NCBI GenBank assembly: GCA_017442315.1
Contig: JAFRZX010000004.1
Coordinates: 1 to 64,000, forward strand
DNA length: 64,000 nt
Reading direction: 5' to 3'
Source: Bacteroidales bacterium
GTDB taxonomy: Bacteria > Bacteroidota > Bacteroidia > Bacteroidales > UBA932
Below are positions 37,664 through 53,759 of this stretch, piece after piece (the stretch's first letter is position 1; every line of letters starts with the position of its first letter). Position numbers and translations under genes: made by a program. The notes below the pieces were generated by a model that saw only the letters and a list, made by a program, of their open reading frames with translations, did no database searches and had not been told where the DNA came from.

Positions 37664-37693
37664 TTGGAGATTTTAAAAAAAAGTTTAACTTTG
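37664..37693 (+). promoter_or_regulatory. Promoter of the first Omp28/lipoprotein unit
   Basis: TTG at 37664-37666 and TAACTTTG at 37686-37693 are 19 bases apart. The leader to the 902-aa lipoprotein ATG is about 40-45 bases. It is divergent from purB, with the two -33 elements about 30 bases apart. Confidence 0.7.
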
Positions 37694-37741: not shown

Positions 37742-40450
37742 ATGAAAAGTAAAATCTTAAACATGATCTGGCTCCTGGCCGTTCTGTCCGTTGTTTTCGG
37801 ATGCAAGCAGCCTGAGGAGGAAACTCCGGCAGGAAAGGAGCCTGCCCTTGAAGTTACATTGGAAAACATTACTCCGTCTTCAGCAGATCTTCTGATCAGG
37901 ACGCAGAACATCATGGAGGTTGCCTATGTAATCAATGACCATGAAATGGATAATATGACTCCTATGGTAGTTTTCAAGAGTGGTATTACCCAGAAGGCTT
38001 CCGGAACGGACCGTATAACTGTTTCAGACTTGGAATCCGAATCGGATTATGTTGTCTATGTAGCAGCGAAAGTTGACGAAAGTACGCAATATGACGATGT
38101 TGTAATGCTGGAATTCTCCACTGCAGCATATGAATTCACGGACCTGGTCACTGTCATAGAAAAAGATATGGATTCCTTCAAGGTTCATATCAAGACAGGA
38201 GACAATATCGGTCCGGGACAGGATCAGAATGCCATCCGTTATGGTGTCATCACATTGCCGTTCTATCTTGATCTGCTTTCAACCGGACGTACCGATGCGG
38301 AAGCTCTTACGGATAACGGAAGGATGAAGGTTACTGCATCCCGCGAACTTTATTACGGACCGGACAATGTGTATGTGGACGAGAATCTCAACCCGGTTCC
38401 GGAAGATGAAGCGGATCCCCTTGAACATTATTATTTACATGATTATTTTTCTCCTGGCGAACCTCTTGTCTTTCTGGCAGGAGAATTTGAGTGGGGTGAA
38501 GATGAATTCGGGCGTGGATGGGACCATTTCATTCCATTGTTCGATTATGAGGCTTGGTTCGCTCAGTACATACCTCCGACAACGCCTCTTCTTGAGGTTG
38601 CTGAAATGCAGGACCAGTATTGGTCAGGCGAGTTCCAGAGGACTTTTATAACCCTGGATACTCCGGCTCTGCTTGATGGAGGCGTGACAATCGAACCGGT
38701 ATCTTCAAGTGCAATCGATGCCTCATTCAATGTGATTCCTGATGATAATGTGTATTCTTATCATGTCGGAATCATGGATCAGGGAATTTATGAAGATGTG
38801 CTTAAATTCTTGGGAGGCAACGAAGATTATCTCCAGTGGTTCCTGACAAGTTATTATGCATGGCGTTTCGGTCTCGCTCAGACTTATATGGGAGGTCAGA
38901 AGATAAATCTTACCAATCAGATATATGCGCAGCCTAATACGACTTATCATGTCATGGTGACATGTTTCGGAGATCAGGGTGGTACTGTGCAGAGCTTCCA
39001 GAGGACAACGATTTCAACCACAGGATATACTCTGCCACTGCCGGATGTGGATGTTACGGCTGTTGAGGACGGAAAGTATTCCGATAGAGTGAAGTTCAAC
39101 ATCAAGGCTCCTGCTGGGGATCTTGTCAAAGGATTTTGGGCATGTAATTATGTCAGGGAGTTTGAACTTCTGAGAAATGTGGAATATACTTATCCTGATA
39201 TAATCAGCGGAGGTGTTGCGTTGACACCGGCAGAAATTGCAGCGATAAACTCTCCTGAGGGATATGACATATGGTTTACATCTCCTCCAGCTGAGACATG
39301 GAGACTCGGTGTTCTCGGATATAATGCGGAAGACAGGACAAATACTTTTGAGCGCGGTGATAACTCTTTTGCTGACTGCAGCACAAGGCAGCTTGACCCA
39401 GCTGTATATGTAAAGACAGATCTGTATGACAAGCTTGTCGGAGACTGGACGGCTAAGGCGAGGATTCTTTCCGTATATGATGAGAATGGAAATACTGAAT
39501 CCACTGAAACAGGTTATAAGAGTTTCGAGAGGGAGATAGAGTCCAAGGTGACGATATCACGTGGTGTAGATTATGTCTCTCCTATGCCTGAGAGTCTGTT
39601 TGATATATATAAGCCTCGTGTTGATGAAAACGGGAACCAGATCGAGTCTGATGAGGATTTCAGACGTAGGGTTACTGATGTCTATAATGGATTCTGCACT
39701 ATGGCAGATGATTTCACCAAGTATAACGTAGATTGGCAGAACCGTCTGCTTTGCACTGGATTCGCTCTGGATAAGTACGCTTATGGACTTAACGTGGCTT
39801 CTCCATGGGATCTGTTCACATCTTCTACATATGGAAGCTATGATAATGGACAGATATTCTACGATTTCGGCCCTAAATGGTATCTTGAGTTCTATAAGGA
39901 AGATGGAGTGGTTAAGGCGAGGGTGCCGATGAATACGGAACTCATGTATCCGTTCTCCAACTGGGACGGGTATAACTATCATCTTCTACCATATTCTTCA
40001 GAGAAGAATGAAACTTTGGGCTCGTTCGGTTACGATGATGGGGATATGCCTTTGTATGGATATTCGCCGGTAGAGATTTCTGCTGATGCCCAGACAATAA
40101 CCTTGAAGGCATTGATTGCTGATGGAGCAGAGTATTATCTTACTCCTCAGTATTTTACATATGGCAGTCCTAGCATGGCATATGCGGTGGTTTCCGAAAT
40201 TGTCCTTACAAAGGGTTGGAACGGAGACGGACAGCAGCAGGATGCCGTTCCTGGTGTTGCAAGCCTTGCAAGGCCTCGTATGGTTGATCCTGACAATAAT
40301 TTGATGACAGGAATCAAGATGATGACGGCTCCTAAGGCAATCACTCCTCTCAAAGCCCCTGTGAAGCTGAATGTTGCATATCAGGCCCCTGCAACCAGAG
40401 AGACTTTCAACAGGGCACGTGAAGAATATTATTCGGAAAAAATAAGATAA
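37742..40450 (+). CDS. Large surface lipoprotein, Fn3/Ig-like modules (902 aa)
   Basis: I do not recognise a named family for the whole protein. It has a lipoprotein signal (VVFGC, Cys21) followed by KQPEEE, a charged stretch like the Bacteroidota surface export signal. Residues about 35-125 look like a fibronectin-III-type module (NITPSSADLLIRT ... ESDYVVYVAAKV). Further beta modules follow, one with a long helical insert (DVLKFLGGNEDYLQWFLTSYY). From about residue 560 the segment LVGDWTAKARILSVYD begins a lipocalin-like beta domain. It forms a two-gene unit with the Omp28-like gene, two bases downstream. Confidence 0.8.
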   Translation: MKSKILNMIWLLAVLSVVFGCKQPEEETPAGKEPALEVTLENITPSSADLLIRTQNIMEVAYVINDHEMDNMTPMVVFKSGITQKASGTDRITVSDLESESDYVVYVAAKVDESTQYDDVVMLEFSTAAYEFTDLVTVIEKDMDSFKVHIKTGDNIGPGQDQNAIRYGVITLPFYLDLLSTGRTDAEALTDNGRMKVTASRELYYGPDNVYVDENLNPVPEDEADPLEHYYLHDYFSPGEPLVFLAGEFEWGEDEFGRGWDHFIPLFDYEAWFAQYIPPTTPLLEVAEMQDQYWSGEFQRTFITLDTPALLDGGVTIEPVSSSAIDASFNVIPDDNVYSYHVGIMDQGIYEDVLKFLGGNEDYLQWFLTSYYAWRFGLAQTYMGGQKINLTNQIYAQPNTTYHVMVTCFGDQGGTVQSFQRTTISTTGYTLPLPDVDVTAVEDGKYSDRVKFNIKAPAGDLVKGFWACNYVREFELLRNVEYTYPDIISGGVALTPAEIAAINSPEGYDIWFTSPPAETWRLGVLGYNAEDRTNTFERGDNSFADCSTRQLDPAVYVKTDLYDKLVGDWTAKARILSVYDENGNTESTETGYKSFEREIESKVTISRGVDYVSPMPESLFDIYKPRVDENGNQIESDEDFRRRVTDVYNGFCTMADDFTKYNVDWQNRLLCTGFALDKYAYGLNVASPWDLFTSSTYGSYDNGQIFYDFGPKWYLEFYKEDGVVKARVPMNTELMYPFSNWDGYNYHLLPYSSEKNETLGSFGYDDGDMPLYGYSPVEISADAQTITLKALIADGAEYYLTPQYFTYGSPSMAYAVVSEIVLTKGWNGDGQQQDAVPGVASLARPRMVDPDNNLMTGIKMMTAPKAITPLKAPVKLNVAYQAPATRETFNRAREEYYSEKIR

Positions 40451-40452
40451 AA

Positions 40453-41556
40453 ATGAAAATATATAAAATGATATTGCTTTTTGCGGCAGCCGTTTTAATG
40501 GCTGCCTGCGAAAAGTCAGGCGATGAAAGCAACAGTAAGACTCCGGCTGCCGATTCAGAACTGGTTCTGAAGGTGGATAAGATCTATATCCAGAGCAAGG
40601 TTGATGCTGCAAACTTTACACTTACCCTCGCAGGTGAGCCTGTTACAGAGGGCGTTACCTTTTATGATGGATCGACAAATGCAGTTGTCGATATCAAGGA
40701 TATGAAGTTCACTGCAGATGCAGATGGTACATATTCTTTCTGGGCATCTTATATGACATTCACTTCCAATACGGTTGTGGTCAAGGCTATCCCGATGGCA
40801 GTACCGTCAAATCCGGTGGACGAAGATAAATCCAATACTTCATTCAGGCGTCGTGTTCTTATGACTCAGTTCACAGGAACCGGATGTCCGAATTGTCCTT
40901 ATATGATATCTGCTCTTCATAAGGTGTATGAGAAGGAGGCTTATTCTTCAAAAGTCGTCCATGTTTCATCACATACATCTTGGGCATCGACTTTTTATCT
41001 TGAAAAGGATGTTCATGGGTTCATGGGGGTAAGCGGTGCGCCTTGGCTTGTTGCGGATTTTGACAAGTCTTCAAAAATCGGTGCTTACAGTGACACAGAC
41101 AGGACAGCCATGGATATTGAATATGTTATAGACGAGTGGTATGATGCTCAGGAACCGATGGCCGGAATAGCTGTCAACTCAGTGCTTTCCGGAAAGACAC
41201 TTGCTGTAAAGGCTCTTGTCAAGGCAGCCGAAACTGCTGAATATCGTGTAGGAGCGTGGCTTCTGGAGGATGATCTGATATCAGAGCAGGCCGGTGCATC
41301 CCAGGAGTGGATGAATAAACATAATAATGTGCTGCGTATAGCTGACAGTGAGATATCCCAGTCCAATTTTTCCGGTCATAAGCTAGGCCAGATAAAGGCT
41401 GGTGAATACAGCGAATACGTTTTTGTGATGGAGCTTGACCCTTCATGGCAGGAGGAAAATCTGCATCTGGCAGTCTTTATCACCAACGGCGGTCTTGTCA
41501 ACAATGTGGTAGATTGCAAGGTAGGAGAAAGCATAGGATTCGATTATGCCGAGTAA
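40453..41556 (+). CDS. Omp28-related lipoprotein with CPNCP motif
   Basis: A 367-residue member of the Omp28-related family of Bacteroidota outer-membrane proteins. Order of parts: lipoprotein signal (LMAACEKSG, Cys19), an Ig-like beta domain (about residues 35-115, with SNTVVVKA at its end), a thioredoxin-like domain with Cys145 and Cys148 in GTGCPNCPYM and a cis-Pro-like loop (VSGAPWLVADF), and a C-terminal beta domain (about 235-367). Whether the CxxC is redox-active is not known for the family. It is followed by a strong bidirectional terminator. Confidence 0.87.
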   Translation: MKIYKMILLFAAAVLMAACEKSGDESNSKTPAADSELVLKVDKIYIQSKVDAANFTLTLAGEPVTEGVTFYDGSTNAVVDIKDMKFTADADGTYSFWASYMTFTSNTVVVKAIPMAVPSNPVDEDKSNTSFRRRVLMTQFTGTGCPNCPYMISALHKVYEKEAYSSKVVHVSSHTSWASTFYLEKDVHGFMGVSGAPWLVADFDKSSKIGAYSDTDRTAMDIEYVIDEWYDAQEPMAGIAVNSVLSGKTLAVKALVKAAETAEYRVGAWLLEDDLISEQAGASQEWMNKHNNVLRIADSEISQSNFSGHKLGQIKAGEYSEYVFVMELDPSWQEENLHLAVFITNGGLVNNVVDCKVGESIGFDYAE

Positions 41557-41575
41557 AGTAAAGGCATAGGTCATA

Positions 41576-41626
41576 TACAGAATCAGCCACCGGAAGAATC
41601 GCGGATTCCCGGTGGCTGATTCTGTA
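41576..41626. terminator. Bidirectional terminator between convergent units
   Basis: A perfect 18-bp inverted repeat, TACAGAATCAGCCACCGG (41576-41593) and its complement at 41609-41626, with an inner GAATC-GCG-GATTC hairpin in the loop. It lies between the stop codons of the Omp28-like gene (+) and the DoxX/MauE-like gene (-). The lack of long T-runs on both sides is unusual, but the stem is exceptionally stable. Confidence 0.8.
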
Positions 41627-41637
41627 ATGATGACGTT

Positions 41638-42819
41638 TTACAGAAGAAGCATGACTGCAAATACATATAGGAGAAAACTCTGGAATATGAGACTGCTCTG
41701 ACTGCTGTGACCAATTATGGTTTCTGTGGCGTCTCCTTCATAAAGTTCTTTCAGCTCTTTTCTGTCAGGCAGAGATCTTGCCGACCATTTCCGGATGAGG
41801 AATCCGTCATTGAAAAAAGTTGCCCCACCGTTGGCTCTGTTCAGAGATAGCAATGTCTTTCTGTCTGCATGGAAGGCAGTTCTTCTCAATTCTTCAGGAA
41901 TATCCTCCATTTTACCGGAAAACAGAGTGACAGGCGTGAATCCTTGCTCTTCAGATGCATTTATAAGTGCTGCAGTCCTTGCCCATTGGGAAGCTTTTAT
42001 GTCAGTATCATATAGTGATATGACCATTACCTTGCCTATTGTTGCAAGAGAGTCCTGATATCGTCCCATACTGTCGTGGAAAGACAGGTTGACCAAGGAA
42101 TTGTCGTATCCCTCCTTGAGTCTGGTCTCTGTGCTGACGAATGTCCATGTTGTGTCAGGGAGGTGGCCGAGTGTGAAGGCCTGCTGCTGTCCATCCTTTT
42201 CATATAAGAACACCGCTTCATACATATCTTCCTGCGGAGTTCCGAAGGCGTTGCCGGCCTGTAGCGCTGCGGCAGGCTTGAAATCTGTGAAATCGGTCAA
42301 TGGAATATGCATCCATGAATAGATTGTGAACAGGAATACTGATGTCAGCACTATAGAGAATGATACATATTTGCGTCTTCGTGTTTTGCCCAGATGTTTT
42401 GCGGGGATGTAGTATGTAAGGAGCAGTACAAGCATCAGGATGTTCTTTACAAACGTTTCCATGTGTGTGAGATGAATGACCTCTCCGAAGCATCCGCAAT
42501 CCATCTGGGGGTTGAAAATGACCAGCAGTAGTGTCACAAGGGTGAAGAAACCTTGAATAGCGATGGCTGCAGGTGCAATGATCCTGCGCCATACTCCGGT
42601 TATCAGCCCGGCACCCAGAACTGTTTCGGTCAAAGCCAGCAATGTGCCTGTTATTTTTGCTGCAGGAGCCATGAAATCCACATGAAGGAAATTGAAATAC
42701 TCCTCCATTACAAGTCCGGCTCCCACCGGATCCAGTAGCTTGAATATACCCGAAAGGAAGAAAATGAAACCTGTGATGAACCCGCAGAAACGTTTTAGTC
42801 TTAAAAGAAGATACCTCAT
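41638..42819 (-). CDS. BT_3928-like DoxX/MauE-type membrane protein with thioredoxin-like C-terminus
   Basis: A 393-residue protein. Residues 1-145 hold four membrane helices of the DoxX/MauE type, with the motif MDCGCFGE (Cys108, Cys110). After a fifth hydrophobic segment (about 152-170), residues 185-360 form a periplasmic domain that resembles a thioredoxin fold (KVMVISLYDTDIKAS ... GGATFFNDGFLIRKW) but lacks CxxC. A final hydrophobic helix ends the protein. MauE-type proteins are linked to electron transfer for periplasmic disulfide formation. It overlaps tmk by ATGA. Confidence 0.82.
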   Translation of the reverse strand: MRYLLLRLKRFCGFITGFIFFLSGIFKLLDPVGAGLVMEEYFNFLHVDFMAPAAKITGTLLALTETVLGAGLITGVWRRIIAPAAIAIQGFFTLVTLLLVIFNPQMDCGCFGEVIHLTHMETFVKNILMLVLLLTYYIPAKHLGKTRRRKYVSFSIVLTSVFLFTIYSWMHIPLTDFTDFKPAAALQAGNAFGTPQEDMYEAVFLYEKDGQQQAFTLGHLPDTTWTFVSTETRLKEGYDNSLVNLSFHDSMGRYQDSLATIGKVMVISLYDTDIKASQWARTAALINASEEQGFTPVTLFSGKMEDIPEELRRTAFHADRKTLLSLNRANGGATFFNDGFLIRKWSARSLPDRKELKELYEGDATETIIGHSSQSSLIFQSFLLYVFAVMLLL

Positions 42820-43508
42820 TGCAACATTTGTTTGATTGCTGTGTCTACAACTGCCTGGATCTTGGCAAAAATCGATCCCGGAGGAAGCATCTGGCCATAT
42901 TCGTCAGAGCAGTCGATCCTTATGAATCTGGGGTCCAGTTCGCATTGCTTCCTGTAGATGTCGCGTACGCGCCTTTGAAAATCGATATCCGCTTCGTGTA
43001 TATCCTGTCCGCCTTCAAGGTATTCCCGGTCTGCACCTCTCCTCTGACTTTGCAGTCTGGACTCCACAAATCCGATAGGAACGTCAAGAAATATGTTCAG
43101 GTCCGGTTTCGGAAGCTCGAAATCACCATATTCCGTGCATATGATCCACTCTCTCAATCTTTCGGCCTCTTCTATGTTGCCGAGCTTGGCGCATTGGTAT
43201 GCAATATTGGAATATACGTACCGGTCCAGAAGGACATTGCATCCCTCTGCCAGTTTTTTCTTGATGACAGGTGCAGCACCATGCCTGTCTTCGGCAAACA
43301 GCAATGCCACCAGCTGCGGGTGGACCGTTTCATTTGATCCGAAATCTCCTCTAAGAAAACGGCTTATGAGATCTCCGTAGACGGGAGCATCATATCGCGG
43401 GAAATGAATGTATTCGAGTTTGCCGGAGGCCTCTTCAAGATATTTTTTAAGCTTCTTTACCTGTGTGGATTTGCCGGCTCCATCCAGACCTTCTAAAACA
43501 ACAAGCAT
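42816..43508 (-). CDS. tmk: Thymidylate kinase
   Basis: A 230-residue dTMP kinase, making dTDP for DNA synthesis. The P-loop LEGLDGAGKSTQVKKL opens the protein; the DR(Y/H) motif is LLDRYVYSNIAYQ, and the lid region RRGADREYLEGG follows. The length is slightly above that of E. coli Tmk. It is the first gene of a two-gene unit with the DoxX/MauE-like gene, overlapping by four bases. Confidence 0.96.
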   Translation of the reverse strand: MLVVLEGLDGAGKSTQVKKLKKYLEEASGKLEYIHFPRYDAPVYGDLISRFLRGDFGSNETVHPQLVALLFAEDRHGAAPVIKKKLAEGCNVLLDRYVYSNIAYQCAKLGNIEEAERLREWIICTEYGDFELPKPDLNIFLDVPIGFVESRLQSQRRGADREYLEGGQDIHEADIDFQRRVRDIYRKQCELDPRFIRIDCSDEYGQMLPPGSIFAKIQAVVDTAIKQMLQ

Positions 43509-43529
43509 AGGGTTACAATTTGAAAGTCA

Positions 43530-43537
43530 CAAAGATA
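43530..43537 (-). promoter_or_regulatory. -7 box for tmk
   Basis: Reads TATCTTTG on the minus strand, 21 bases before the tmk ATG. No TTG at the expected distance. It is back-to-back with the tlpA-like promoter at 43565-43595. Confidence 0.45.
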
Positions 43538-43564
43538 ATAAAATACTTTTTCACAGAAAAAATA

Positions 43565-43595
43565 TTGATTTAAAAAATATTATTACGTACTTTTG
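43565..43595 (+). promoter_or_regulatory. Promoter of the TlpA-DUF6029-Omp28 operon
   Basis: TTG at 43565-43567 and TACTTTTG at 43588-43595 are separated by 20 bases, an exact consensus. The leader to the first ATG is about 22-25 bases. No further consensus promoter was found before the end of the seven-gene unit at 53.67 kb. Confidence 0.75.
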
Positions 43596-43624
43596 CCGGT
43601 TCGTACCATTAATTTAGAAATGTA

Positions 43625-44116
43625 ATGAAAATGAGAACATTCCTATTGAGTATCGCACTCTTTATCACTGTAGCGGCAGCTGCTCAGATCCCTTCTGTAA
43701 CTGTTGAGAACGCAAAAGGAGAAACTTTCAATACGAAAGTGCTTCTTGAAGAAGGTACTCCTATGATCGTATCCTTCTGGTCAACATCATGCAAACCATG
43801 CATCCGCGAACTGGATGCGGTATATGATGCACTTCCTGATTGGCAGGAGGAGGCTTCTTTCCGCGTAGTTGCGGTGTCTACGGATGACAGCCGCCTGATG
43901 GCTAAAGCAAAGTCTTTTGCGGAAGGACGTGGCTGGGGCGAGGATTTTACGCTTCTGTTTGATAAGAATCAGGATTTCATGAGAGCAATGAACGTATCTG
44001 TGGTTCCTCACGTGTTTGTTGTTGATGGAAACGGTAAGATAGTCTATTCCCATACTTCTTATGTACCGGGAAATGAACTTGAACTGTTTGAGGCGGTAAA
44101 GAAATGTTCAAAATAA
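43625..44116 (+). CDS. TlpA-like thioredoxin family protein
   Basis: A 163-residue exported thioredoxin of the TlpA/ResA type. It has a cleavable signal peptide (residues 1-21, ending VAAAAQ), and the active site Cys56-Lys-Pro-Cys59 in VSFWSTSCKPCIREL. A cis-Pro loop VSVVPHVFVVDGNG lies near residue 130. CKPC is typical of reducing thioredoxins of this group. It heads a seven-gene operon whose later products carry further CxxC motifs, so it may service them in the periplasm. The gap to the next gene is 13 bases. Confidence 0.9.
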   Translation: MKMRTFLLSIALFITVAAAAQIPSVTVENAKGETFNTKVLLEEGTPMIVSFWSTSCKPCIRELDAVYDALPDWQEEASFRVVAVSTDDSRLMAKAKSFAEGRGWGEDFTLLFDKNQDFMRAMNVSVVPHVFVVDGNGKIVYSHTSYVPGNELELFEAVKKCSK

Positions 44117-44129
44117 TGGATGACGACTT

Positions 44130-45773
44130 ATGAAAAAAGTTATTCTTCTTTTGGGATTGGTCGTCTTTGGTCATGTATTGGCAGCTCAGACGGATAAAGG
44201 TTATCTTACAGGAAGCCTGGAGTCTAACAGCTATTATTATATGGATGACAAGAAGACGGGTGCATTCATCGGTGATACGGACCCGTTTGCAACAGCCAAT
44301 TATCTGAAGCTGGACTATTATAAGGGACGTTTTTCAGCCGGCATGCAGCTGGAAGGTCATCTGCCTGCAGTGCTGGACCTGCGTCCGTATCTTCATGGAT
44401 TCAACCTGGGAAACATCTATGCCACATGGCAGGATGATGATTTCTCCGTAACAGCAGGAACATTCTATGAGCAGTTTGGAAGCGGACTTCTTTTCCGCAG
44501 CTGGGAGGATCGTGCCCTTGGACTGAATAATGCCGTAATCGGAGCTCGTTTTACCTATAATTACAAGGATATCGTTTCTTTCAAGGCCCTGTGGGGACTT
44601 CCTCGCCTTGGCATGGGAATCTTTACAAGTAACGTCCAGAGAGAACTTTATCCGACCAATAAGGATACTCAGGTGCGCGGAGCAGATGTCAGTTTTGCCA
44701 TTTCCAATCTTGTCGGCTGGACAGATCTTTATCTTGCAATCGAAGCATCCGGGCTCAACAGGTATGAACCGGACCTGTCTCCTGATTATGTGGAACTTGG
44801 AGGAAAATCCAGCACATTCGGATGGTCAGGACGTCTGAACTTCGAGTGCAGCGGATTCTTTGCCAAGGCCGAATATGTGGATGCGGGCAACAAATACCAT
44901 TCTGATGGAGCTGGTGAATATTTCATCAAGAAGGGTAATGCTCAGCTCATAGATTTCGGGTATAACGGCAAGGGATTGGGTGTCACAGTCACAGGACGCC
45001 GTCTTGAGTGGATGAGGTCGGAGATCCTTACCGGAAACAATTCGCCTTTGAATATGATGAATTATGTGCCGGCTCTCTGTACCCAGTATACCTACATGCT
45101 TACCAATCTTCATCCATACAGTTCCCAGGTGGGAGAATATCTGGGTGGTTTCATGAACAGCGGTGAAATCGGAGGACAGATTGATGCTTTCTACAATTTC
45201 AGACGCGGTACAGCCTTAGGAGGTAAGCGCGGTATGAAGATACATGCGAATTTCTCTACTTATTACACTATTGATGAAGAAGGTACGTACAAGGCTGGTG
45301 CGCTTGTGTTCCGTGATTTCAGCTTTGATATAGAAAAGCAGTGGAACAAGAAATTCAAGACAATGCTCCTCTATTCTCATCAGGAGTATAACAGTTCCAA
45401 GCCTGCAGGATCTCTCAATGAGATGATTAATCAGGATATATTCGTTCTGGACATGCTTTACAAGTATACAGATCGTTTTTCTACTCGTCTGGAACTCCAG
45501 TATCTCCTTACCAAGGATGATGACAAAGACTGGATGGCAGCCCTTCTTGAGGTTAATTTCGCACCACGTTGGAGCCTTTTCGTAAGCGATATGTTCAATC
45601 ATGGAAGTACCAAGGTGCATTATTATAATGCGGGTGTAAGCTATACCAAGTCGCGCACGCGTCTGGCTTTGGGATATGGACGGTTTAAAGGTGGATTCAT
45701 CTGCTCCGGAGGTGTTTGCCGTGAGATCTCTCCATATACAGGAGCCAATCTTACCCTTACCACTTCATTCTGA
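44130..45773 (+). CDS. DUF6029 family outer-membrane barrel protein
   Basis: A 547-residue exported protein with a signal peptide (residues 1-19, ending VLAAQ) and continuous amphipathic beta strands through the C-terminus (YTGANLTLTTSF, ending in Phe as outer-membrane barrels do). Features such as GFNLGNIYATWQDDDFSVTAGTFYEQFGSGLLFRSWEDRALGLNN mark the DUF6029 family of Bacteroidota. Its function is not known. It sits between the TlpA-like gene and three Omp28-like genes and overlaps the next gene by one base (TGATG). Confidence 0.85.
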   Translation: MKKVILLLGLVVFGHVLAAQTDKGYLTGSLESNSYYYMDDKKTGAFIGDTDPFATANYLKLDYYKGRFSAGMQLEGHLPAVLDLRPYLHGFNLGNIYATWQDDDFSVTAGTFYEQFGSGLLFRSWEDRALGLNNAVIGARFTYNYKDIVSFKALWGLPRLGMGIFTSNVQRELYPTNKDTQVRGADVSFAISNLVGWTDLYLAIEASGLNRYEPDLSPDYVELGGKSSTFGWSGRLNFECSGFFAKAEYVDAGNKYHSDGAGEYFIKKGNAQLIDFGYNGKGLGVTVTGRRLEWMRSEILTGNNSPLNMMNYVPALCTQYTYMLTNLHPYSSQVGEYLGGFMNSGEIGGQIDAFYNFRRGTALGGKRGMKIHANFSTYYTIDEEGTYKAGALVFRDFSFDIEKQWNKKFKTMLLYSHQEYNSSKPAGSLNEMINQDIFVLDMLYKYTDRFSTRLELQYLLTKDDDKDWMAALLEVNFAPRWSLFVSDMFNHGSTKVHYYNAGVSYTKSRTRLALGYGRFKGGFICSGGVCREISPYTGANLTLTTSF

Positions 45774-46849
45774 TGAATATGATGAGACAGCGGTTTTATA
45801 TGATTGCATTCATGATGACCATTATGGTATCATGTGAATCTCCCGTTTCTGATAGCCTAGCGGAGGATGGTTACACTATCAGTGCCGACAAGACGGTCAT
45901 ACAGGCCGACGGTAAGGATATGGCTCTTTTCACTATAAAGGATCCGTCCGGAAAGATTGTTTCTACAGATTCGGAAACCGGTGTCATATATTTTGAGAAT
46001 GTAAAGACGGGCAAAAGATTGCCTCGACGTTCAAAAGGCTTTGTGTCTATGGATAACGGCGAGTATGAATTTGTCGGAATATACAGAGGAACTTATACTT
46101 CCAATACTGTCAGGATAAGTGCGGTAAACAGAGGAAAATACGAGAAATTTCACCGAAATGTAGCTATTTTCAAGCTTACAGGAGCCTGGTGTCCTGCATG
46201 TCCGGGAATGACGGAAGCCCTGCATGATCTGGAAGATGATGTGCGGAAACATGTTGTGGTTCTGGCATGCCATTATAACGATATCTATTCGGCTCCAGGA
46301 TTGGGGGAGGCCTTGAGTGTTGATTTCGATAATAACTCTTTTCCGGCAAATGTCTATGATCTGTATATGCTTGACCGTTCTGTCACAGATATCGCATCCA
46401 TTGTTAATGAGCGTCGTGCAGACAGTCCGGCTACATGCGGGATCCGGATTTCCGGATTCGGATGCATCGATGGTAATCTCAGGGTAGATGCGGCCCTGAC
46501 ATCATCGGAAGGAGGCAGCTATGATCTTGCATGTGCAATACTGAAGGATAATAACTACCTTGCCTATGACGGCAGGACTTCATATGCCCCGGACGGATAT
46601 TATCACGATATTGTGTGGGCTGCTAGTGAGAATGTAAGGGCTTTCAAGGGGAGTACGTCAGTGACTTTGGAAAAGGACGGACAGATGGAAAGGACATTTA
46701 CTTTTGCCTATGGCGGTAATGATGCCATGCTTGATGATCTGAAGGCTGTTGTCTTTGCCCATAGAAAGGATGCTGATGGAGGGACATCAGTCGACAATGC
46801 CGTCCTATGCTGTTTTGGGGAAACAAAGGATTATATATACAATGAATAG
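45773..46849 (+). CDS. Omp28-related lipoprotein with CPACP motif
   Basis: A 358-residue Omp28-like lipoprotein (lipid Cys21 in IMVSCESP). Its N-terminal Ig-like domain (about residues 33-118, ending TYTSNTVRISAVN) resembles that of the protein encoded at 40453. The thioredoxin-like domain follows, with Cys140 and Cys143 in GAWCPACPGM and a NNSFPANVYD cis-Pro-like loop. The C-terminal domain is beta-rich. The gene begins in the stop codon of DUF6029 and overlaps the next Omp28-like gene by eight bases. Confidence 0.86.
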   Translation: MNMMRQRFYMIAFMMTIMVSCESPVSDSLAEDGYTISADKTVIQADGKDMALFTIKDPSGKIVSTDSETGVIYFENVKTGKRLPRRSKGFVSMDNGEYEFVGIYRGTYTSNTVRISAVNRGKYEKFHRNVAIFKLTGAWCPACPGMTEALHDLEDDVRKHVVVLACHYNDIYSAPGLGEALSVDFDNNSFPANVYDLYMLDRSVTDIASIVNERRADSPATCGIRISGFGCIDGNLRVDAALTSSEGGSYDLACAILKDNNYLAYDGRTSYAPDGYYHDIVWAASENVRAFKGSTSVTLEKDGQMERTFTFAYGGNDAMLDDLKAVVFAHRKDADGGTSVDNAVLCCFGETKDYIYNE

Positions 46850-47702
46850 ATTGTTGTTGCATATAGCGTCTTTGCTGACCTTGATTTTTCTTGTCTCATG
46901 CAGCGGCAAGGAAGATGCGAAGTCTGCTGAAGATGTGCAGCAGGGACAGACAGCACCGGTAGGGCAGAAGAATTATGTGCAGAAGGTTTTAGGCTTGCAG
47001 TTCACCTCAGCTTATTGTCAGGCTTGTCCGGGTCTTGCATCTTCATTGAAAGAGGCAGAAGAACTGATGCCGGGAGTCTTGGTTCCGATATCTTTTCATC
47101 TGGACTACAATGATATGTCGGATCCGATGGCAGTTTCGGCATCTTCAACATTGATGAGAAAGTACGGATTCAATGTACTTCCTTATTTTGTAATCAACTT
47201 CAGGGATGGAGAGATCGGTGTCGGTACGGATGTCGATTCGGTGCTGGAGGCTGTCCGGTATGAACTGGAACAATGGCCGGTAGAATGTGGAGTTGCCGTG
47301 AAGTCTGAATATGATGCTCAGAACGGCAAGGTGACCGTGACTGTCAGAGTGGCTTCCAATGTAGAAGGCCGTTATCGTTGCAATGCATTCCTCGTTGAAG
47401 ACGGCATAGATTACCTTCAGGTCGGGGCAGCGGACGGAGAGGCATATCTCCATGATAACGTTGTAAGGAAGATGATGTCTGTCAGCATCGAAGGCAGCAA
47501 TCTGGGCTCCGGTCTTGCTCTTGAAGCAGGAACCGAATACCCGTTGACTTTCTCGTCCCAGCTGGACCCGTCCTGGAATCCCGATGCGATGAGAGTCGTA
47601 GCTGTTGCAATGGCAACAGAAGACCAAGGACGTACATATTATTGTGCAAATGTCAACTCCTGTGCGTTGCAGGATGGGGAATCAGATTATTTGACGGAAT
47701 AA
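46842..47702 (+). CDS. Omp28-related lipoprotein with CQACP motif
   Basis: A 286-residue lipoprotein (lipobox FLVSC, Cys20, then SGKEDAKSAED). It lacks the Ig-like domain: the thioredoxin-like part begins at about residue 45, with Cys59 and Cys62 in SAYCQACPGL and the NVLPYFVINF cis-Pro loop. The C-terminal beta domain contains RYRCNAFLVED and QLDPSWN, which recur in the two other Omp28-like proteins here. The frame opens 31 codons earlier, inside the previous gene, but only the ATG at 46842 gives a signal peptide. Confidence 0.85.
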   Translation: MNRLLLHIASLLTLIFLVSCSGKEDAKSAEDVQQGQTAPVGQKNYVQKVLGLQFTSAYCQACPGLASSLKEAEELMPGVLVPISFHLDYNDMSDPMAVSASSTLMRKYGFNVLPYFVINFRDGEIGVGTDVDSVLEAVRYELEQWPVECGVAVKSEYDAQNGKVTVTVRVASNVEGRYRCNAFLVEDGIDYLQVGAADGEAYLHDNVVRKMMSVSIEGSNLGSGLALEAGTEYPLTFSSQLDPSWNPDAMRVVAVAMATEDQGRTYYCANVNSCALQDGESDYLTE

Positions 47703-47705
47703 GTG

Positions 47706-48566
47706 ATGATGAAAAGAATTGTATCCATATTGATTGTCTCAGCATTGACGGTTTATGCATGTTCGGATGATGTTGCTCTGGAGACCTTGCAAGATCCTTC
47801 TGGGACTCAGGAGATTGTGATTGCTGATGTACCTGAGGATTTTGAATCGGCATACCAGAAGCAGGTAGCTGTATGGGATTTTACAGGTGCTTCCTGTGTA
47901 TATTGTCCTGACGGATATTCCAAGATAAACTCCTATCTGACCATTATGGGGTATAAGGAAATAATCCATCCTATGGCTTTCCACTCGAAGGCTCAGGGAA
48001 GTGGTGACCTGGCATTGGAAGAGACCGACCAGATTCATCAGGCATTCAGACTGACTTCATATCCGGCTTTTGTGACAGATATGCTCTATTCAGGCGGACT
48101 TGGAAACGACAGCAATGAATTCGCCGAAAGCATAGAGGATAATTTCATAGATAATATATGTCATTGCGGTGTGGCTGTTTCTTCAAGAGTAGATGGCACA
48201 ACTGCTTCGGTGACAGTAAAGGTCCTGTCTGAGTGGACTTCAGAGTATAGGGTGGCTCTGTATGTGGTGGAAGATGCTGTCAGATATCCTCAGCTTACAG
48301 CTGCTGGAGTGGATGAGAATTATATCCATCGTCATGTAGTCAGACGCATAGTGTCATCCTCATACAAGGGAGATTCAATGAGTGAAAACGGTGCTGTCAT
48401 CAATGCCGGAGAGGAAAAGACCAAGGTCTATGAAATAAGTCTCGACAGCAGGTGGAACCTTACAAACACATCCGTATATGCTCTTGTCATAGGTAAGGAC
48501 GGATATGTCAATAATATGAATATATGCTCTGTTTCAGACGGAGATTCTGGATATAAAATGAAATAA
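47706..48566 (+). CDS. Omp28-related lipoprotein with CVYCP motif
   Basis: A 286-residue lipoprotein (lipobox TVYAC, Cys19). CSDD follows the lipidation site, like a Bacteroidota lipoprotein surface-export signal. The thioredoxin-like domain has Cys64 and Cys67 in GASCVYCPDGY and a TSYPAFVTDM cis-Pro loop. Its C-terminal beta domain includes YRVALYVVEDAVRYPQ and SLDSRWN. ATGs at 47706 and 47709 and a GTG at 47703 are all possible starts. The next gene follows after one base. Confidence 0.85.
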   Translation: MMKRIVSILIVSALTVYACSDDVALETLQDPSGTQEIVIADVPEDFESAYQKQVAVWDFTGASCVYCPDGYSKINSYLTIMGYKEIIHPMAFHSKAQGSGDLALEETDQIHQAFRLTSYPAFVTDMLYSGGLGNDSNEFAESIEDNFIDNICHCGVAVSSRVDGTTASVTVKVLSEWTSEYRVALYVVEDAVRYPQLTAAGVDENYIHRHVVRRIVSSSYKGDSMSENGAVINAGEEKTKVYEISLDSRWNLTNTSVYALVIGKDGYVNNMNICSVSDGDSGYKMK

Positions 48567-48567
48567 A

Positions 48568-50784
48568 ATGAAAAAGCTTTGCTTATATCTGTCAGTTTTG
48601 TCCGCTGCTTTTGTGTTTTTTGCATGTAGCAGACCGGAAGTACCGGAAAACGGAGGTGAAGAAGTTGCCGGTCCGGTTGTCGACTATCCTGATACGATCC
48701 TTGTTGAAGGAGATTATCCTGTACCGCATCCCAGAATACCGATGCTTGTTCATGACGGAAAATACAATGCATCTGCTGACGGAGTGTCAGTGGAGGTTAC
48801 GGAAGTGGAGGACAAGAACATCACGTTCGTATGTCGGCCAGGATCCAATATTGAATCTTATGCTGTCAATGTCTATCCTCTGAGTCTGCTGTATAACATG
48901 CTTATGGACAACGGTGCATTGGATACGGACGTCGCCACTGTTGAGGATCTTATCCTTCAGATAATGTTCGGAAGCTCTTTGTCCGGGTATGCGTTCAATA
49001 AGGAATCCCTGGATGCATCATGGGACGAGATGGAGTTTGATTGGATGAATACCGAATATTCTGCATACCTTGGTATTGTTCCGGATGCGCAGTATATAAT
49101 TGCTGTGGCTGCCTCATATGATGATGTCCCAGGCATGACGAATGTGGGTGAATTGACATTGGTGTATGTTGAATCCGGTTCTCAGGAACTTGTCGGTGAT
49201 CCTAAAGTGGATATTCAGGTTCTTACAGGCTATACGGCCTTCCGTGTCAATCATTTCCCTAATTCCGATTGTGCCGGATTCTATTACTTCGGTACAGATA
49301 CCTATCAGGTTGAAGAATATGTAGAGATATTCGGTGACAGAATGTTCCGTGACTTCATCCGTCATTGCAGCTCTCCAAATATCCCTGTTGATGCAGCGGC
49401 AACAGACCGGCACTCATATAAATATGAGTTTCCAGGACTTCCGGATCCTGATCATTCATTCATCACAGTCGCTGTGGCTGTGGACGTGAACGGTACTCCG
49501 GAAAAAGGTTATGGCAAGGAGATATTTACCGTCAAGGCTACACCAGGTGATGCAGATCCTGCCGAACTGTCTTATGGCATAAAGGAGGTTGGAGCCAGCT
49601 ATGCCATATATGAGATGAATCTTGAGGCTTCGTGTGAAGTGGGCTTCCACCGTGTAATGACCAGACACCAGGCCGATTCTATAAAGAATGACTGCTCGCC
49701 AGAGCAGCAGGAAGCATTTGCAAAAGCTCTTTCCAAAGGAGGATGGGCAACCGTCAATGAGAATTATGGAATGGATCCGGATGCCGGACTGCTGACGGGA
49801 TCATCTTTCGTGTCGACCATGACGGATATATCTCTTGAGCCTGAAACAGAGTATGTCATCGTATATGTCGGGCGCAACTATTATATGAGTATCAGTGACC
49901 TGCACTTCAGCGAGCCTTTTACCACCAAGGCCAGAGTTCTGGATGCTCCGCAGTCATGTCTGGCTGACTTCAAGTTCTCATTTTCGGATGCGACCCGTAC
50001 TTCGGTCACCTTTGATTTCCAGTATGATCCGTTCAATACAGCCAAATTCTATTTCATTGCCAATGAATATATAGAGTTTGCATATGATCCTTGGCTTCCG
50101 GCAAAGGATGCTTCGCGTGAGGAATGGATGCATTTCTTCTTCGGAAAATGGCCTGATGATTTTGATGTCAGCGGGGTTTCAGCTGAAAATCTTGAAAAAG
50201 GGGATCCTCGTCTGATAATGGTATGGGAGGCAGATGATCCATCCGGTCATGAAGTCTATAATCTCCCTGGTTTCGGCCCTGGGGAATATGTGGAGTATGC
50301 GTTGGTTGCCGAGGATAAGAATGGAGTCGTAAGCGAAGTCCTGTTTGCAGACGTAACCACAACAGAAGTCATTCCGGGACCGGATCCGCAAGTACATCTC
50401 GATTACGTGTTTGATAGTGTCCTGAGTGTCTGGACTGTCACGATCAAGGCCGGTAAGGATACGGGTAAGATGAGATATGTGGTGAGTGATGACAGTGCCT
50501 TTGCGCTTAATTATTTCCTGAGTGAGACCAATTACAATTACTACCGCGATAAGGAATATTACCAGAAATGGTATACATATGTCTCACAGCAGGGATTGCC
50601 GACAGATAGTGAATCCATTGTCATTCATACTGAGCCTGGCCAGAACTGCGTGGCTGGAGTTGTCGGATTCGGAATGGATGGAATAGATGAAGTCATTACT
50701 CCTCTCAACTATATAGTGCTTACAGCAGATGGAAGAGCATTGAAGATCAGTGATATATTTCCGAATTACGTAGAACAATTATAA
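48568..50784 (+). CDS. Large surface lipoprotein, Fn3/Ig-like modules (738 aa)
   Basis: No named family is recognised with confidence. The protein has a lipoprotein signal (VFFACSRPE, Cys20) and about five beta-rich modules. Several end in a stretch such as LEPETEYVIVYVGRN or PGPGEYVEYALVAEDKNG, which is the closing half of a fibronectin-III-like module. Long helical inserts occur between strands (SPEQQEAFAKALSKGGWATVN, FLSETNYNYYRDKEYYQKWY). The same style is seen in the 902-aa and 946-aa proteins of this region. It is probably anchored in the outer membrane and surface-exposed. Confidence 0.78.
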   Translation: MKKLCLYLSVLSAAFVFFACSRPEVPENGGEEVAGPVVDYPDTILVEGDYPVPHPRIPMLVHDGKYNASADGVSVEVTEVEDKNITFVCRPGSNIESYAVNVYPLSLLYNMLMDNGALDTDVATVEDLILQIMFGSSLSGYAFNKESLDASWDEMEFDWMNTEYSAYLGIVPDAQYIIAVAASYDDVPGMTNVGELTLVYVESGSQELVGDPKVDIQVLTGYTAFRVNHFPNSDCAGFYYFGTDTYQVEEYVEIFGDRMFRDFIRHCSSPNIPVDAAATDRHSYKYEFPGLPDPDHSFITVAVAVDVNGTPEKGYGKEIFTVKATPGDADPAELSYGIKEVGASYAIYEMNLEASCEVGFHRVMTRHQADSIKNDCSPEQQEAFAKALSKGGWATVNENYGMDPDAGLLTGSSFVSTMTDISLEPETEYVIVYVGRNYYMSISDLHFSEPFTTKARVLDAPQSCLADFKFSFSDATRTSVTFDFQYDPFNTAKFYFIANEYIEFAYDPWLPAKDASREEWMHFFFGKWPDDFDVSGVSAENLEKGDPRLIMVWEADDPSGHEVYNLPGFGPGEYVEYALVAEDKNGVVSEVLFADVTTTEVIPGPDPQVHLDYVFDSVLSVWTVTIKAGKDTGKMRYVVSDDSAFALNYFLSETNYNYYRDKEYYQKWYTYVSQQGLPTDSESIVIHTEPGQNCVAGVVGFGMDGIDEVITPLNYIVLTADGRALKISDIFPNYVEQL

Positions 50785-50825
50785 TTTCTATAACTTATTT
50801 ATTAACCCTTTAAATTATTAGTGTT

Positions 50826-53666
50826 ATGAAAATCGGACAAATTTTCAAGAAGATGGTCGGAGGATCCATGATCCTTGCGGCTCTCGCATGTCCTATGTTC
50901 ACATCGTGCTATGATGATGAAGGTCTGAAACAGGATCTGGATGAGATCAAGGAAAGCCTTGAGTCACTTGAGGACAGGGTCGCTGCCCTTGAGACCAGGT
51001 TGGAAACAGAGGTTTCTGCCCTTCAGAAGATGATCGGTGGCCTTGTGACAGTAAAGTCAGCTGAGAAGGACGGAGCTAACTGGAACATCGAGCTTTCAGA
51101 CGGTACCAAGTTTACTGTTTACCCTGAAACCGTGATTCCGGATGCACCGACTTATCACGAAGGAACAGTTACGATTACAGAAGTTGACGGCGTAAAGGTT
51201 TGGGCTGTCTACAATGCTGATGGAGAAGCAGTTCCTGTAACAGATGCTGCTGGTAACAATGTACCTGTGGTTCCAGAGGCGGAGGAAGTTGAAGTTGTTG
51301 CTCCTCAGGTGCGTTTCAACGATGAAACCAAGGCTTATGAGATTTCTTTCGATGGTGGTCAGACATGGACAGTGACAGGTTATGAACCATCAACAGGTGA
51401 GACGGAAGGATGTACTTGCGAGAGCATCTTTGAAGATGTCGAGCTTGTCTATGACGAGGGACAGTATGATTATACTTCAGTAATCTTCACCCTCGTTGAC
51501 GGCTACACGTTCTCTGTCACTCTCAGCTCTGAATGGTCGACATTTGCATTCTTCAGTCATTACGCGGGAGCTATTGACAGATGCTACTTTGCACCGGGAT
51601 CAAAGAGAAATGAAGTTCCAGTACAGTGCCTGGGATATACTATCGAGGATTGGATGGTTGATCTACCTCAGGGATGGAAGTTTGAATTCGAGTATGATGA
51701 TATGATGCAGCTCTGGCAGGCTTATGTTACCGCACCTTCTGCTGCTGATATCGAAAGCGGTAAGGCTGCTGCAGCCGGTGACCTGAAGCTCCTTGGCGTA
51801 ATGAAGGGAGGAAGCACAAAGGTCGCATCGATGTATGTGACTACGTCTGCGTTCAAGACTGTAAAATATGATGCAAAGACGAATATATGTACTGTAGCCC
51901 TTGAGACTGGTTATGAAGGAATGTACATGTTCGGTATCGTGCCTGCTTCCGGGTTCAGTGCTGAATCAGTAGCTGAAAAGTGCCAGAATGATATACTTTC
52001 CGGAATGGGTATGCCTTATTATTATGACATGGAAGTTGATGCCGATGATCTTTATATGCAGGAGATAGAGGCAGGAGTGCCTATGGTTCTCTGGGCTGTA
52101 CCTGTAGTTCAGGGTGAATGGAATGATGCTCTTTGGTCCTATGAATACGAGGTTTCTGCTGATGCATTGGTAGCTGTAGAATTTTCTAAGGTTATGCTTT
52201 CCATTGAGGCGACATCTGTATCTGCTGTGGATATCCAGATCAGGGCTGAGCTCAAGGGAGTGGATAAATTCTATGCAGGACTTCAGACTGTCCAGGATTT
52301 TGCGGATTTCGAGTCGTATGATCTGCCATATACAAAATATTGGGACGTATATGAGAATGACGGACAGGTATATACAGGTTCCATCCTTAATTTCCCGACA
52401 GCTCTCGAAGCTTCGGTTGAGCCGGGAAATGATTATATATATTGGTTGATCATTTATGACGAGACCAAGCAGACATATACGATGGATGATGTCTATACAT
52501 TTGAATTTTCATCTGAAATGCCTATTCCTGGCGGTACTGCGGAGCCTGTATTCAGCAATGCCAAGATTGACTATTCTTCGATAAGGGTGACTCTTGGCTG
52601 CGATGCTGCTGACTGGAGCATCATCTATTGCGCATATATGGAGGAAGCTGAACTTCTGAGATATCCGGATGATGAGATGAAAGCTGAGTATCTGCTGGAA
52701 AATGGAACCATGTTCACTCCGGACAGCTGGTTTACAAATCTTACCGCTTCTCCTCTTGGTCAGGGAGAAACCCGTGTCCTTGTTGCAATGGTTCTTGATT
52801 CAAATGGTATGTATGGCCCTGTGAAGACAGAAAAATATACAACTTTGAAGGCAAAATATAACGAAGATATCAAGGTCAGCATTACTCTGGATCCTGAATT
52901 CCCTTCAAATAAGGGTGGTGCCAAGTTGACAGCTACCGGTGGAACTCCTGTAAGCTATTGGTACTGGTATGGTCCTACAAATGAATATATGTGGACTTCA
53001 AGCATGGGTGGTACAGAAGAGAAGGTTGAATCGTATGCTTCTACCAATACATATGCTCAGTACTATTTCAAGACTGCGGCAGCTGCTGATGGTGTTGCAG
53101 AAATTGAAATGACCAACCTTTCTATAGGTGTTGAATATGCTCTCGTTGTGCTTGCGAAGGATGTTGACGGCGTATATTCCCGTGCTTCATTCAAGTACTT
53201 CACACCTGCATTTGACCTTGGAACAATCGTTTATGCTGATGAAGCCGCATATGGCAACTACAAGCCGACAGTGGAATTCATCAGTGCAGAGGATTTTGAG
53301 TTCTATGAGTATAAATTCAGTGTGACAGCGCCAGCTGGATGTGCTGCGGCATATGTGGTTGCAGAGCACCCGGATTATAATCCTGATAAAAAGGTAGCTA
53401 CACGTGACCTTATCAACTACATAATTGCAACAGCGGATGTAGAGGAAACTGCATACCATTATGTGGAAAACGAGGATGGCGGATATGATACAATTGAGGT
53501 ATATTATCCACATGGCAACTATACCCGTGGTTATGGTGTGGTATTCGAGGGTGAGACTGTTACATTCACACAGCCTTACGGTAACTCGACAGACCTTGTC
53601 TACATCACCTGGAAGGATGCTGCGGGCAATTTCCATGAGCCTCTCCAGCTCTCGCTCCAGTACTAG
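50826..53666 (+). CDS. Lipoprotein with PL29-lyase-type N-terminal domain (946 aa)
   Basis: The N-terminus has a lipoprotein signal (FTSCYDDE, Cys28) and then a coiled coil LKQDLDEIKESLESLEDRV, VAALETRLETEVSALQ, and the segment TVKSAEKDGANWNIELSDG. This is the module annotated in Bacteroidota as the PL29 lyase family N-terminal domain; no lyase catalytic domain is visible after it. The remaining 700 residues are Fn3/Ig-like modules with helical inserts (DILSGMGMPYYYDMEVD, EEAELLRYPDDEMKAEYLL), like the 738-aa protein before it. It is the last gene of the operon and is followed by two terminators. Confidence 0.82.
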   Translation: MKIGQIFKKMVGGSMILAALACPMFTSCYDDEGLKQDLDEIKESLESLEDRVAALETRLETEVSALQKMIGGLVTVKSAEKDGANWNIELSDGTKFTVYPETVIPDAPTYHEGTVTITEVDGVKVWAVYNADGEAVPVTDAAGNNVPVVPEAEEVEVVAPQVRFNDETKAYEISFDGGQTWTVTGYEPSTGETEGCTCESIFEDVELVYDEGQYDYTSVIFTLVDGYTFSVTLSSEWSTFAFFSHYAGAIDRCYFAPGSKRNEVPVQCLGYTIEDWMVDLPQGWKFEFEYDDMMQLWQAYVTAPSAADIESGKAAAAGDLKLLGVMKGGSTKVASMYVTTSAFKTVKYDAKTNICTVALETGYEGMYMFGIVPASGFSAESVAEKCQNDILSGMGMPYYYDMEVDADDLYMQEIEAGVPMVLWAVPVVQGEWNDALWSYEYEVSADALVAVEFSKVMLSIEATSVSAVDIQIRAELKGVDKFYAGLQTVQDFADFESYDLPYTKYWDVYENDGQVYTGSILNFPTALEASVEPGNDYIYWLIIYDETKQTYTMDDVYTFEFSSEMPIPGGTAEPVFSNAKIDYSSIRVTLGCDAADWSIIYCAYMEEAELLRYPDDEMKAEYLLENGTMFTPDSWFTNLTASPLGQGETRVLVAMVLDSNGMYGPVKTEKYTTLKAKYNEDIKVSITLDPEFPSNKGGAKLTATGGTPVSYWYWYGPTNEYMWTSSMGGTEEKVESYASTNTYAQYYFKTAAAADGVAEIEMTNLSIGVEYALVVLAKDVDGVYSRASFKYFTPAFDLGTIVYADEAAYGNYKPTVEFISAEDFEFYEYKFSVTAPAGCAAAYVVAEHPDYNPDKKVATRDLINYIIATADVEETAYHYVENEDGGYDTIEVYYPHGNYTRGYGVVFEGETVTFTQPYGNSTDLVYITWKDAAGNFHEPLQLSLQY

Positions 53667-53672
53667 TCTATG

Positions 53673-53692
53673 AGACCACCTTCGGGTGGTCT
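53673..53692 (+). terminator. UUCG hairpin after the 946-aa gene
   Basis: AGACCACC (53673-53680) pairs with GGTGGTCT (53685-53692) around a TTCG tetraloop, starting seven bases after the stop codon. The T-run is short (TTC), but the UUCG loop is very stable. Confidence 0.75.
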
Positions 53693-53696
53693 TCAT

Positions 53697-53745
53697 AAAA
53701 AAAGCTGTATTCCTTGGAAAAGTCTTGGAATACAGCTTCTTTTTT
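53697..53745. terminator. Bidirectional terminator between the lipoprotein operon and infB
   Basis: A 12-bp stem AAGCTGTATTCC (53702-53713) with GGAATACAGCTT (53727-53738), preceded by a run of seven A and followed by CTTTTTTG, so it works in both directions. On the minus strand it starts about 20 bases after the infB stop codon. Confidence 0.88.
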
Positions 53746-53759
53746 GTTGGTGTCCGGAC

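Follow-up and report, generated by a model that had tools for sequence, protein, structure and literature searches.

Proteins of the DsbD/CcdA type use cysteine pairs to move reducing power across the bacterial inner membrane and feed TlpA-type proteins, and MtrCAB-type porin-cytochrome conduits carry electrons over the outer membrane by means of a barrel with a redox protein inside and outside. Gram-negative thiol chemistry has been described for the cytoplasm and periplasm; we know of no outer-membrane route for reducing power, and none is reported among the open-access matches listed for such a route. Here we analyse a stretch of 64,000 nucleotides from a Bacteroidales bacterium (contig JAFRZX010000004.1; hereafter, the window), in which a compact plus-strand unit encodes a TlpA-like thiol oxidoreductase, a predicted outer-membrane beta-barrel of the family DUF6029 and Omp28-like lipoproteins with CxxC motifs. 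Judging from sequence, we consider it somewhat probable that DsbD, TlpA, DUF6029 and an outer thioredoxin-fold partner, here Omp28, form a trans-outer-membrane thiol-disulfide relay. The window lies on contig C172 of a genome assembled into 173 contigs (2.8 Mb, 88.6% complete).

The proposed arrangement resembles DsbD/CcdA in that cysteine pairs would take reducing power across a membrane, and MtrCAB in that a beta-barrel would have redox proteins on both sides. It differs from each in its parts. DsbD/CcdA proteins are helical and sit in the inner membrane, whereas the DUF6029 protein is predicted to be a barrel of the outer membrane whose single cysteine pair lies in a terminal hairpin; its structural model is mostly strands with short helices and shows none of the cysteine-bearing transmembrane helices of a DsbD-type transporter. 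MtrCAB conduits are haem wires, whereas the CxxC motifs of the window are followed by proline or isoleucine and never by histidine (no CXXCH). From the FimD/PapC ushers DUF6029 is set apart by 10% identity, by its conserved cysteine pair and by the absence of pilus genes among its named neighbours.

HBP35 of Porphyromonas gingivalis, in the excerpts of its report used here (PMC2907840), has thioredoxin activity that depends on two active-site cysteines, and one of its forms is located at the cell surface. Its authors describe the physiological role of the thioredoxin domain as unknown and suggest upkeep of the cell-surface redox state, while what recharges the protein is not given in the paper's Discussion. 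HBP35 has a C-terminal domain of the type IX secretion system (T9SS) kind, whereas the Omp28 proteins of the window resemble lipoproteins, in a genome where SprA was not found. In Paraprevotella clara, protein 00502, annotated as Omp28-related, recruits trypsin at the surface, according to sections of a second report (PMC9477747), and a 2026 preprint (PMC13404670), which mentions neither Omp28 nor TlpA, discusses a surface thioredoxin of the HBP35 kind from Muribaculaceae. Among the matches listed in the open-access literature, a scope outside which most subscription papers fall, there is no paper on the module, and the titles listed for Omp28 are mostly on Brucella or other proteins so named.

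A conserved TlpA, DUF6029 and thioredoxin-partner module

The genes of two plus-strand units described in an initial annotation of this DNA exist where it placed them and with the spacing it gave, according to the list of open reading frames (ORFs). The following features of unit 2 (43625..53666), with one gene of unit 1, concern the proposed system directly:

43625..44116, plus strand: TlpA/ResA-like thiol oxidoreductase, CKPC (AhpC-TSA 7e-18, over cut-off; ResA model 5.1e-15, under the NCBIfam cut-off; PDB 2m72, 2.7e-45; signal peptide by eye)
44130..45773, plus strand: DUF6029 predicted outer-membrane beta-barrel, 24 long strands in the model (PF19494, 3.8e-172, 574 bits, over cut-off; full length, profile 1-538 of 538)
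45702..45719, plus strand: codons of the barrel's conserved cysteine pair, C525-S-G-G-V-C530
45773..46849, plus strand: Omp28-like lipoprotein 1, CPAC (below the Pfam cut-off; joined by BLAST)
46842..47702, plus strand: Omp28-like lipoprotein 2, CQAC (PF11551, 2.4e-24; nested in a longer TTG frame from 46749)
47703..48566, plus strand: Omp28-like lipoprotein 3, CVYC (PF11551, 3.1e-26; GTG start at 47703 or ATG at 47706)
40453..41556, plus strand: unit 1 Omp28-like lipoprotein, CPNC (367 aa; PF11551, 1.1e-22)

DUF6029 and Omp28 occur together across genomes. Each is present in 25 of the 149 genomes from the window's family, and the 25 genomes are identical. Among 296 genomes of the phylum, DUF6029 is found in 80 and Omp28 in 62, with 58 carrying both, 22 DUF6029 only, 4 Omp28 only and 212 neither (Fisher 4.5e-38, no strength line applied); those that share the two are spread over many families (handles f1 to f49). 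When 21 genomes with weak matches are set aside, 58 of the 59 strong DUF6029 genomes have Omp28 (Fisher 1.4e-55), the line between strong and weak (best E below 1e-17) having been drawn after the table was seen; both tests count each genome as an independent observation, which exaggerates their significance. The weak matches, which lie in genomes without Omp28, were at one point taken as chance, a reading dropped because 20 of the 21 proteins carry the cysteine pair and have a TlpA-like gene directly upstream. One genome that is DUF6029-only by Pfam (G271) holds an Omp28-like protein at its locus (L189) by our own profiles. Among named records, the nearest DUF6029 proteins belong to Bacteroidales of the gut or rumen, chiefly Rikenellaceae/Alistipes (9 loci at 42-70% identity), and another genome of the window's genus (G118; contigs C5, C17 and C27) has three DUF6029 copies and six Omp28 matches. 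A lack of conserved co-occurrence in related genomes, named beforehand as what would refute the system, is thus not what is seen for DUF6029 and Omp28.

Gene order is similarly conserved. In 90 compared loci (9 from named records, 80 genome stretches and the window), for which gene calls were mechanical and which are not phylogenetically independent, TlpA lies immediately upstream of DUF6029 in the same orientation in 65 and in the opposite one in 5, and Omp28 immediately downstream in the same orientation in 56, with median gaps of 8 nt and 9.5 nt, respectively. A further 24 loci all have a TlpA-like CxxC protein at position -1. Across the resulting 114 loci (L191 was dropped, and the stretches of L191 and L195-L199 are not counted), a TlpA-like gene stands directly upstream of DUF6029 in 89, and a thioredoxin-type CxxC protein (TlpA included) is found within four genes in 112, with two or more in 89. 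By comparison, 219 control windows centred on genes from 20 genomes contain such a protein in 8 cases and two or more in none. No neighbour family beyond the barrel and thioredoxin-type cluster occurs in more than 17 of the 114 loci by BLAST clustering, in which divergent families may be split.

The outer partner is usually Omp28. Its CxxC motif is kept in 112 of the 113 Omp28-like proteins near DUF6029, and C65, C68 and P121 are invariant in all 24 aligned proteins, a selected set that includes the four of the window. The Omp28 profile matches both HBP35 (5y1a, 6.6e-20) and Omp28 (2r2c, 9.6e-26) of P. gingivalis; capsid entries in the same PDB search were taken as spurious. Three of the four window proteins first labelled Omp28-like (40453, 46842 and 47703) pass the Pfam cut-off (34.9 bits) and the fourth, 45773, falls below it, being joined to the group by BLAST (6e-12 to 40453) and by iterated profiles (1e-56 and 1e-82) that could include 45773 itself and are not independent support. 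At three loci (L007:2302-5175, L008:11609-14470 and L013:11609-14467), a single ORF of 952-957 aa is made of three fused Omp28 proteins that match the window's three genes in order, each with CxxC. In 18 loci without Omp28, other thioredoxin-type (TlpA-like CxxC) proteins follow the barrel, with CPHC in 17. Elsewhere in the window's genome lies an additional Omp28 gene (L003, G000:C76:89789-90319), and one Omp28 match (G179:C41:85208-85687, in L117) has a single in-frame TGA, either selenocysteine or a frame break; NCBIfam contains an Omp28-related selenoprotein model.

Some partners carry their own export tail. Ten were tested, nine of them chosen because they looked tailed, and nine have a T9SS type A sorting domain over cut-off, the tenth being without one. 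A scan of nine window proteins at E 1 found no TIGR04183 sorting tail. SprA is present in 228 of the 296 phylum genomes and in 48 of the 149 from the family; of the 25 family members that have DUF6029, however, just 2 (G023 and G059) carry it, so the module would work without T9SS in the window's family, whose Omp28 proteins resemble lipoproteins. T9SS was rejected as the export route here, no SprA having been found in the window's genome (G000, 88.6% complete).

TlpA and DUF6029 are joined in one natural fusion, a 667-aa protein at L083 (8439-10442) and the single such case, which places TlpA at the N-terminus of the barrel. Furthermore, DsbD lies within the same gene run in 13 of the 90 loci (its identity Pfam-checked in four), 12 of them upstream of tlpA in the window's own family (genera g6, g17 and g19) and one in another family, directly downstream of the barrel (L076); none was found in the gene run in 20 control stretches or 30 weak-set stretches. 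Also upstream of TlpA, at L108-L112 and L114-L117, are proteins that share a conserved CF..CF cysteine pair and mostly measure 236-270 aa, including a 495-aa form with three repeats at L108; the one tested, from L114, has a T9SS sorting tail confirmed by Pfam.

The conserved TlpA/DUF6029/thioredoxin-partner module is solid, and the core idea of TlpA, DUF6029 and Omp28 as a conserved system is strongly supported by these sequence comparisons. In the initial annotation, TlpA was suggested to act on Omp28-like proteins at the DUF6029 barrel, with giant lipoproteins as the surface end and possible roles in adhesion, metal or heme handling, or surface assembly. Co-occurrence, adjacency, fusion and the cysteine pair bear out a conserved system; the giant lipoproteins find no support as an integral part of it.

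The barrel cysteine pair and the proposed relay

The near-invariant cysteine pair of the barrel is new here and was absent from the initial annotation. A single pair of the form C-x-x-G-[IVA]-C stands 17-18 residues before the C-terminus in 112 of 114 DUF6029 proteins, and the only two exceptions in the frame read are broken genes, one frame-broken (L101) and one truncated (L102). In the model, which has the size of an usher, the pair sits between the last two strands. At E 1, Pfam finds DUF6029 alone in this protein (residues 1-547), with no usher plug or terminal domains and no usher family. A PDB search with the single sequence gave no match, and the RecA matches of the profile, which cover 36 residues of long RecA constructs, were taken as spurious. 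PG0534 of P. gingivalis was discarded as a known DUF6029 protein, since excerpts of two papers describe it as a TonB-dependent receptor (PMC5445135, PMC5053529).

The relay that we favour builds on the conserved module, the fixed place of the pair, the CxxC and proline of Omp28, one fusion, the DsbD gene runs and some T9SS tails. DsbD would carry electrons from the cytoplasm to the periplasm, where TlpA would accept them at its CKPC motif and dock where the barrel opens to the periplasm. At the barrel's outer end, the C-x-x-G-[IVA]-C hairpin would become reduced, either because TlpA meets the outer loop via the lumen or because the loop folds inward. The hairpin would then reduce the CxxC of surface Omp28 lipoproteins, and these in turn disulfides in surface, host or dietary proteins. 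Such a scheme presumes a redox-active pair that can be reached from either side, an Omp28 that faces outward here, and electron transfer to a substrate in an outward direction, a direction for which DsbD is the reason.

Several observations weigh against this scheme. The barrel model is of moderate confidence, and the cysteine hairpin is among its poorest stretches, with a predicted local distance difference test score (pLDDT) under 50 at residues 524-531. The pair could be structural, and in the model a pair at the outer face would be far from periplasmic TlpA unless the lumen lets them meet. TlpA is missing within six genes in 17 of the 90 loci and Omp28 in 9, some stretches stopping at contig edges, and two of the 114 loci (L082 and L113) have no thioredoxin-type neighbour at all. 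DsbD_TM occurs in 133 of the 149 family genomes. All 25 with DUF6029 are among them, and in the window's genome it is on another contig (C164), outside the window; because DsbD_TM is near universal in the family, only the place of DsbD, and not its presence, is informative. For HBP35, a protective part in oxidative stress found no positive support from its authors (PMC2907840). Genes 00503-00508 are dispensable for the action of 00502 on trypsin, and beads carrying 00502 and nothing else suffice for degradation (PMC9477747, in part), so an Omp28-type protein can act outside cells also without a relay.

The main rival of the relay is a barrel-assembly or export system. In that view the pair is a structural disulfide, TlpA works for this barrel alone by assisting its folding or isomerising the disulfide, and the barrel, as large as an usher, serves to export or display surface proteins, Omp28 among them. 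DsbC assists LptD in a comparable way, and the usher-like size, the compact operon with lipoproteins and the fusion of TlpA to the barrel N-terminus in one genome would all suit such a function. However, what unites the partners is a thioredoxin fold and not a single family: they are Omp28 or, in 18 loci, TlpA-like CxxC proteins. Their catalytic CxxC is kept, and those with their own T9SS tail can leave without this barrel. On balance we find export rather unlikely, if deserving of more weight than any of the remaining alternatives. Thiol exchange is reversible, and the chain could run inward, with outside oxidants setting the thiol state of periplasmic TlpA or with the surface redox state being sensed, but the reductant source DsbD in the gene run at 13 of 90 loci makes an oxidising relay or sensor improbable.

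Two further explanations concern what the barrel might serve. Passages of the one paper found to name DUF6029 in the open-access literature searched suggest polysaccharide secretion from HHpred similarity (PMC9603273), which would make it a Wzi-like export porin with the thioredoxin proteins as bystanders. We regard this as very improbable: it leaves the conserved cysteine pair unexplained, and in the BLAST clustering no other neighbour family is shared above the level of 17 of 114 loci, OPX itself not having been searched for. Iron or heme acquisition, with the module reducing ferric iron or releasing heme at the cell surface, gains from an iron-dependent repressor in 14 of 114 stretches and FeoA/FeoB in 3 (within L171-L188), and from HBP35, which binds hemin and whose loss slows growth in hemin-depleted medium, as reported in passages of PMC2907840. 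Yet these genes turn up solely in the set that has no Omp28, one other clade, and none was found in the window's stretch; moreover, acquisition would be a use of the relay rather than an alternative to it, and as an explanation in its own right it has little probability.

Giant lipoproteins, unit structure and transcription signals

The remaining features of the two units are the following:

37686..37693, plus strand: Bacteroidota-type -7 element TAACTTTG of unit 1 (candidate, by sequence)
37742..40450, plus strand: unit 1 giant lipoprotein, loosely linked (902 aa; lipoprotein by eye)
41570..41632, plus strand: terminator-type hairpin after unit 1 (fold z -9.5; 0/200 shuffles as good)
43588..43595, plus strand: Bacteroidota-type -7 element TACTTTTG of unit 2 (candidate, by sequence)
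48568..50784, plus strand: giant lipoprotein, accessory (no Pfam match at E 1)
50826..53666, plus strand: giant lipoprotein, accessory, with N-terminal DUF4988 (PF16378, 2.3e-11)
53666..53748, plus strand: terminator-type hairpins after unit 2 (fold z -8.5; 0/200 shuffles as good)

The giant lipoproteins had been labelled Fn3-like, a weak label given an fn3 match of E 0.05, below cut-off, for 37742 and no Pfam match for 48568. An N-terminal BT3328-family match of 50826 (6.5e-22) is far below its cut-off, and compared with each other the three give a best BLAST E of 0.45. Relatives of 48568 and of 50826 were found in 8 of 90 loci each and of 37742 in 4 (window included), which speaks against an integral surface end; by these comparisons the giant lipoproteins are a local accessory and may bind substrate, and Omp28 itself is more probable as the surface end. 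Unit 1 is tied to the system through its Omp28 only.

Unit 2 is compact, with successive spacings of 13 nt, overlaps of 1 and 8, then 3 nt (0 from the GTG at 47703), 1 and 41 nt. As proposed earlier, four of its products have CxxC, namely TlpA and three Omp28-like proteins, and all seven appear to carry an export signal, signal peptides and lipoboxes being judged by eye and not by a predictor. On that reading a signal peptide I is likely for TlpA and DUF6029, and the other five resemble lipoproteins. In Omp28-like lipoprotein 3, acidic residues follow the lipobox cysteine. Between the units, on the minus strand (41638-43508), lie a BT_3928-type MauE/DoxX protein (219.6 bits against a cut-off of 250) and a thymidylate kinase. 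The MauE/DoxX gene was rejected as an electron donor, its relatives occurring in just 3 of 114 DUF6029 stretches (L005, L006 and the window).

Consensus promoters and strong terminators had also been noted for both units. Sigma-70-type matches are at chance level (37 found against 31.7 +- 5.7 in shuffles); a TAnnTTTG site, which we take to be the Bacteroidota-type consensus, precedes each unit as a candidate promoter element. Both terminal hairpins fold far better than shuffles, but neither is listed by a pattern scan that is itself at chance (12 against 11.2).

Implications for Bacteroidota surfaces

The module offers a testable answer to the question of what surface thioredoxins do, together with a candidate function for DUF6029. 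If the relay is real, HBP35/Omp28 and similar surface thioredoxins would have a source from which to be recharged. We give roughly an even chance to the broader proposal that Bacteroidota have a dedicated outer-membrane thiol relay, in which a 24-stranded barrel admits a thioredoxin-sized domain and reducing power is exported to recharge HBP35/Omp28 and break disulfides outside the cell. Disulfides in mucins, antibodies, enzymes or plant proteins could then be cleaved by gut and environmental Bacteroidota at their own surface.
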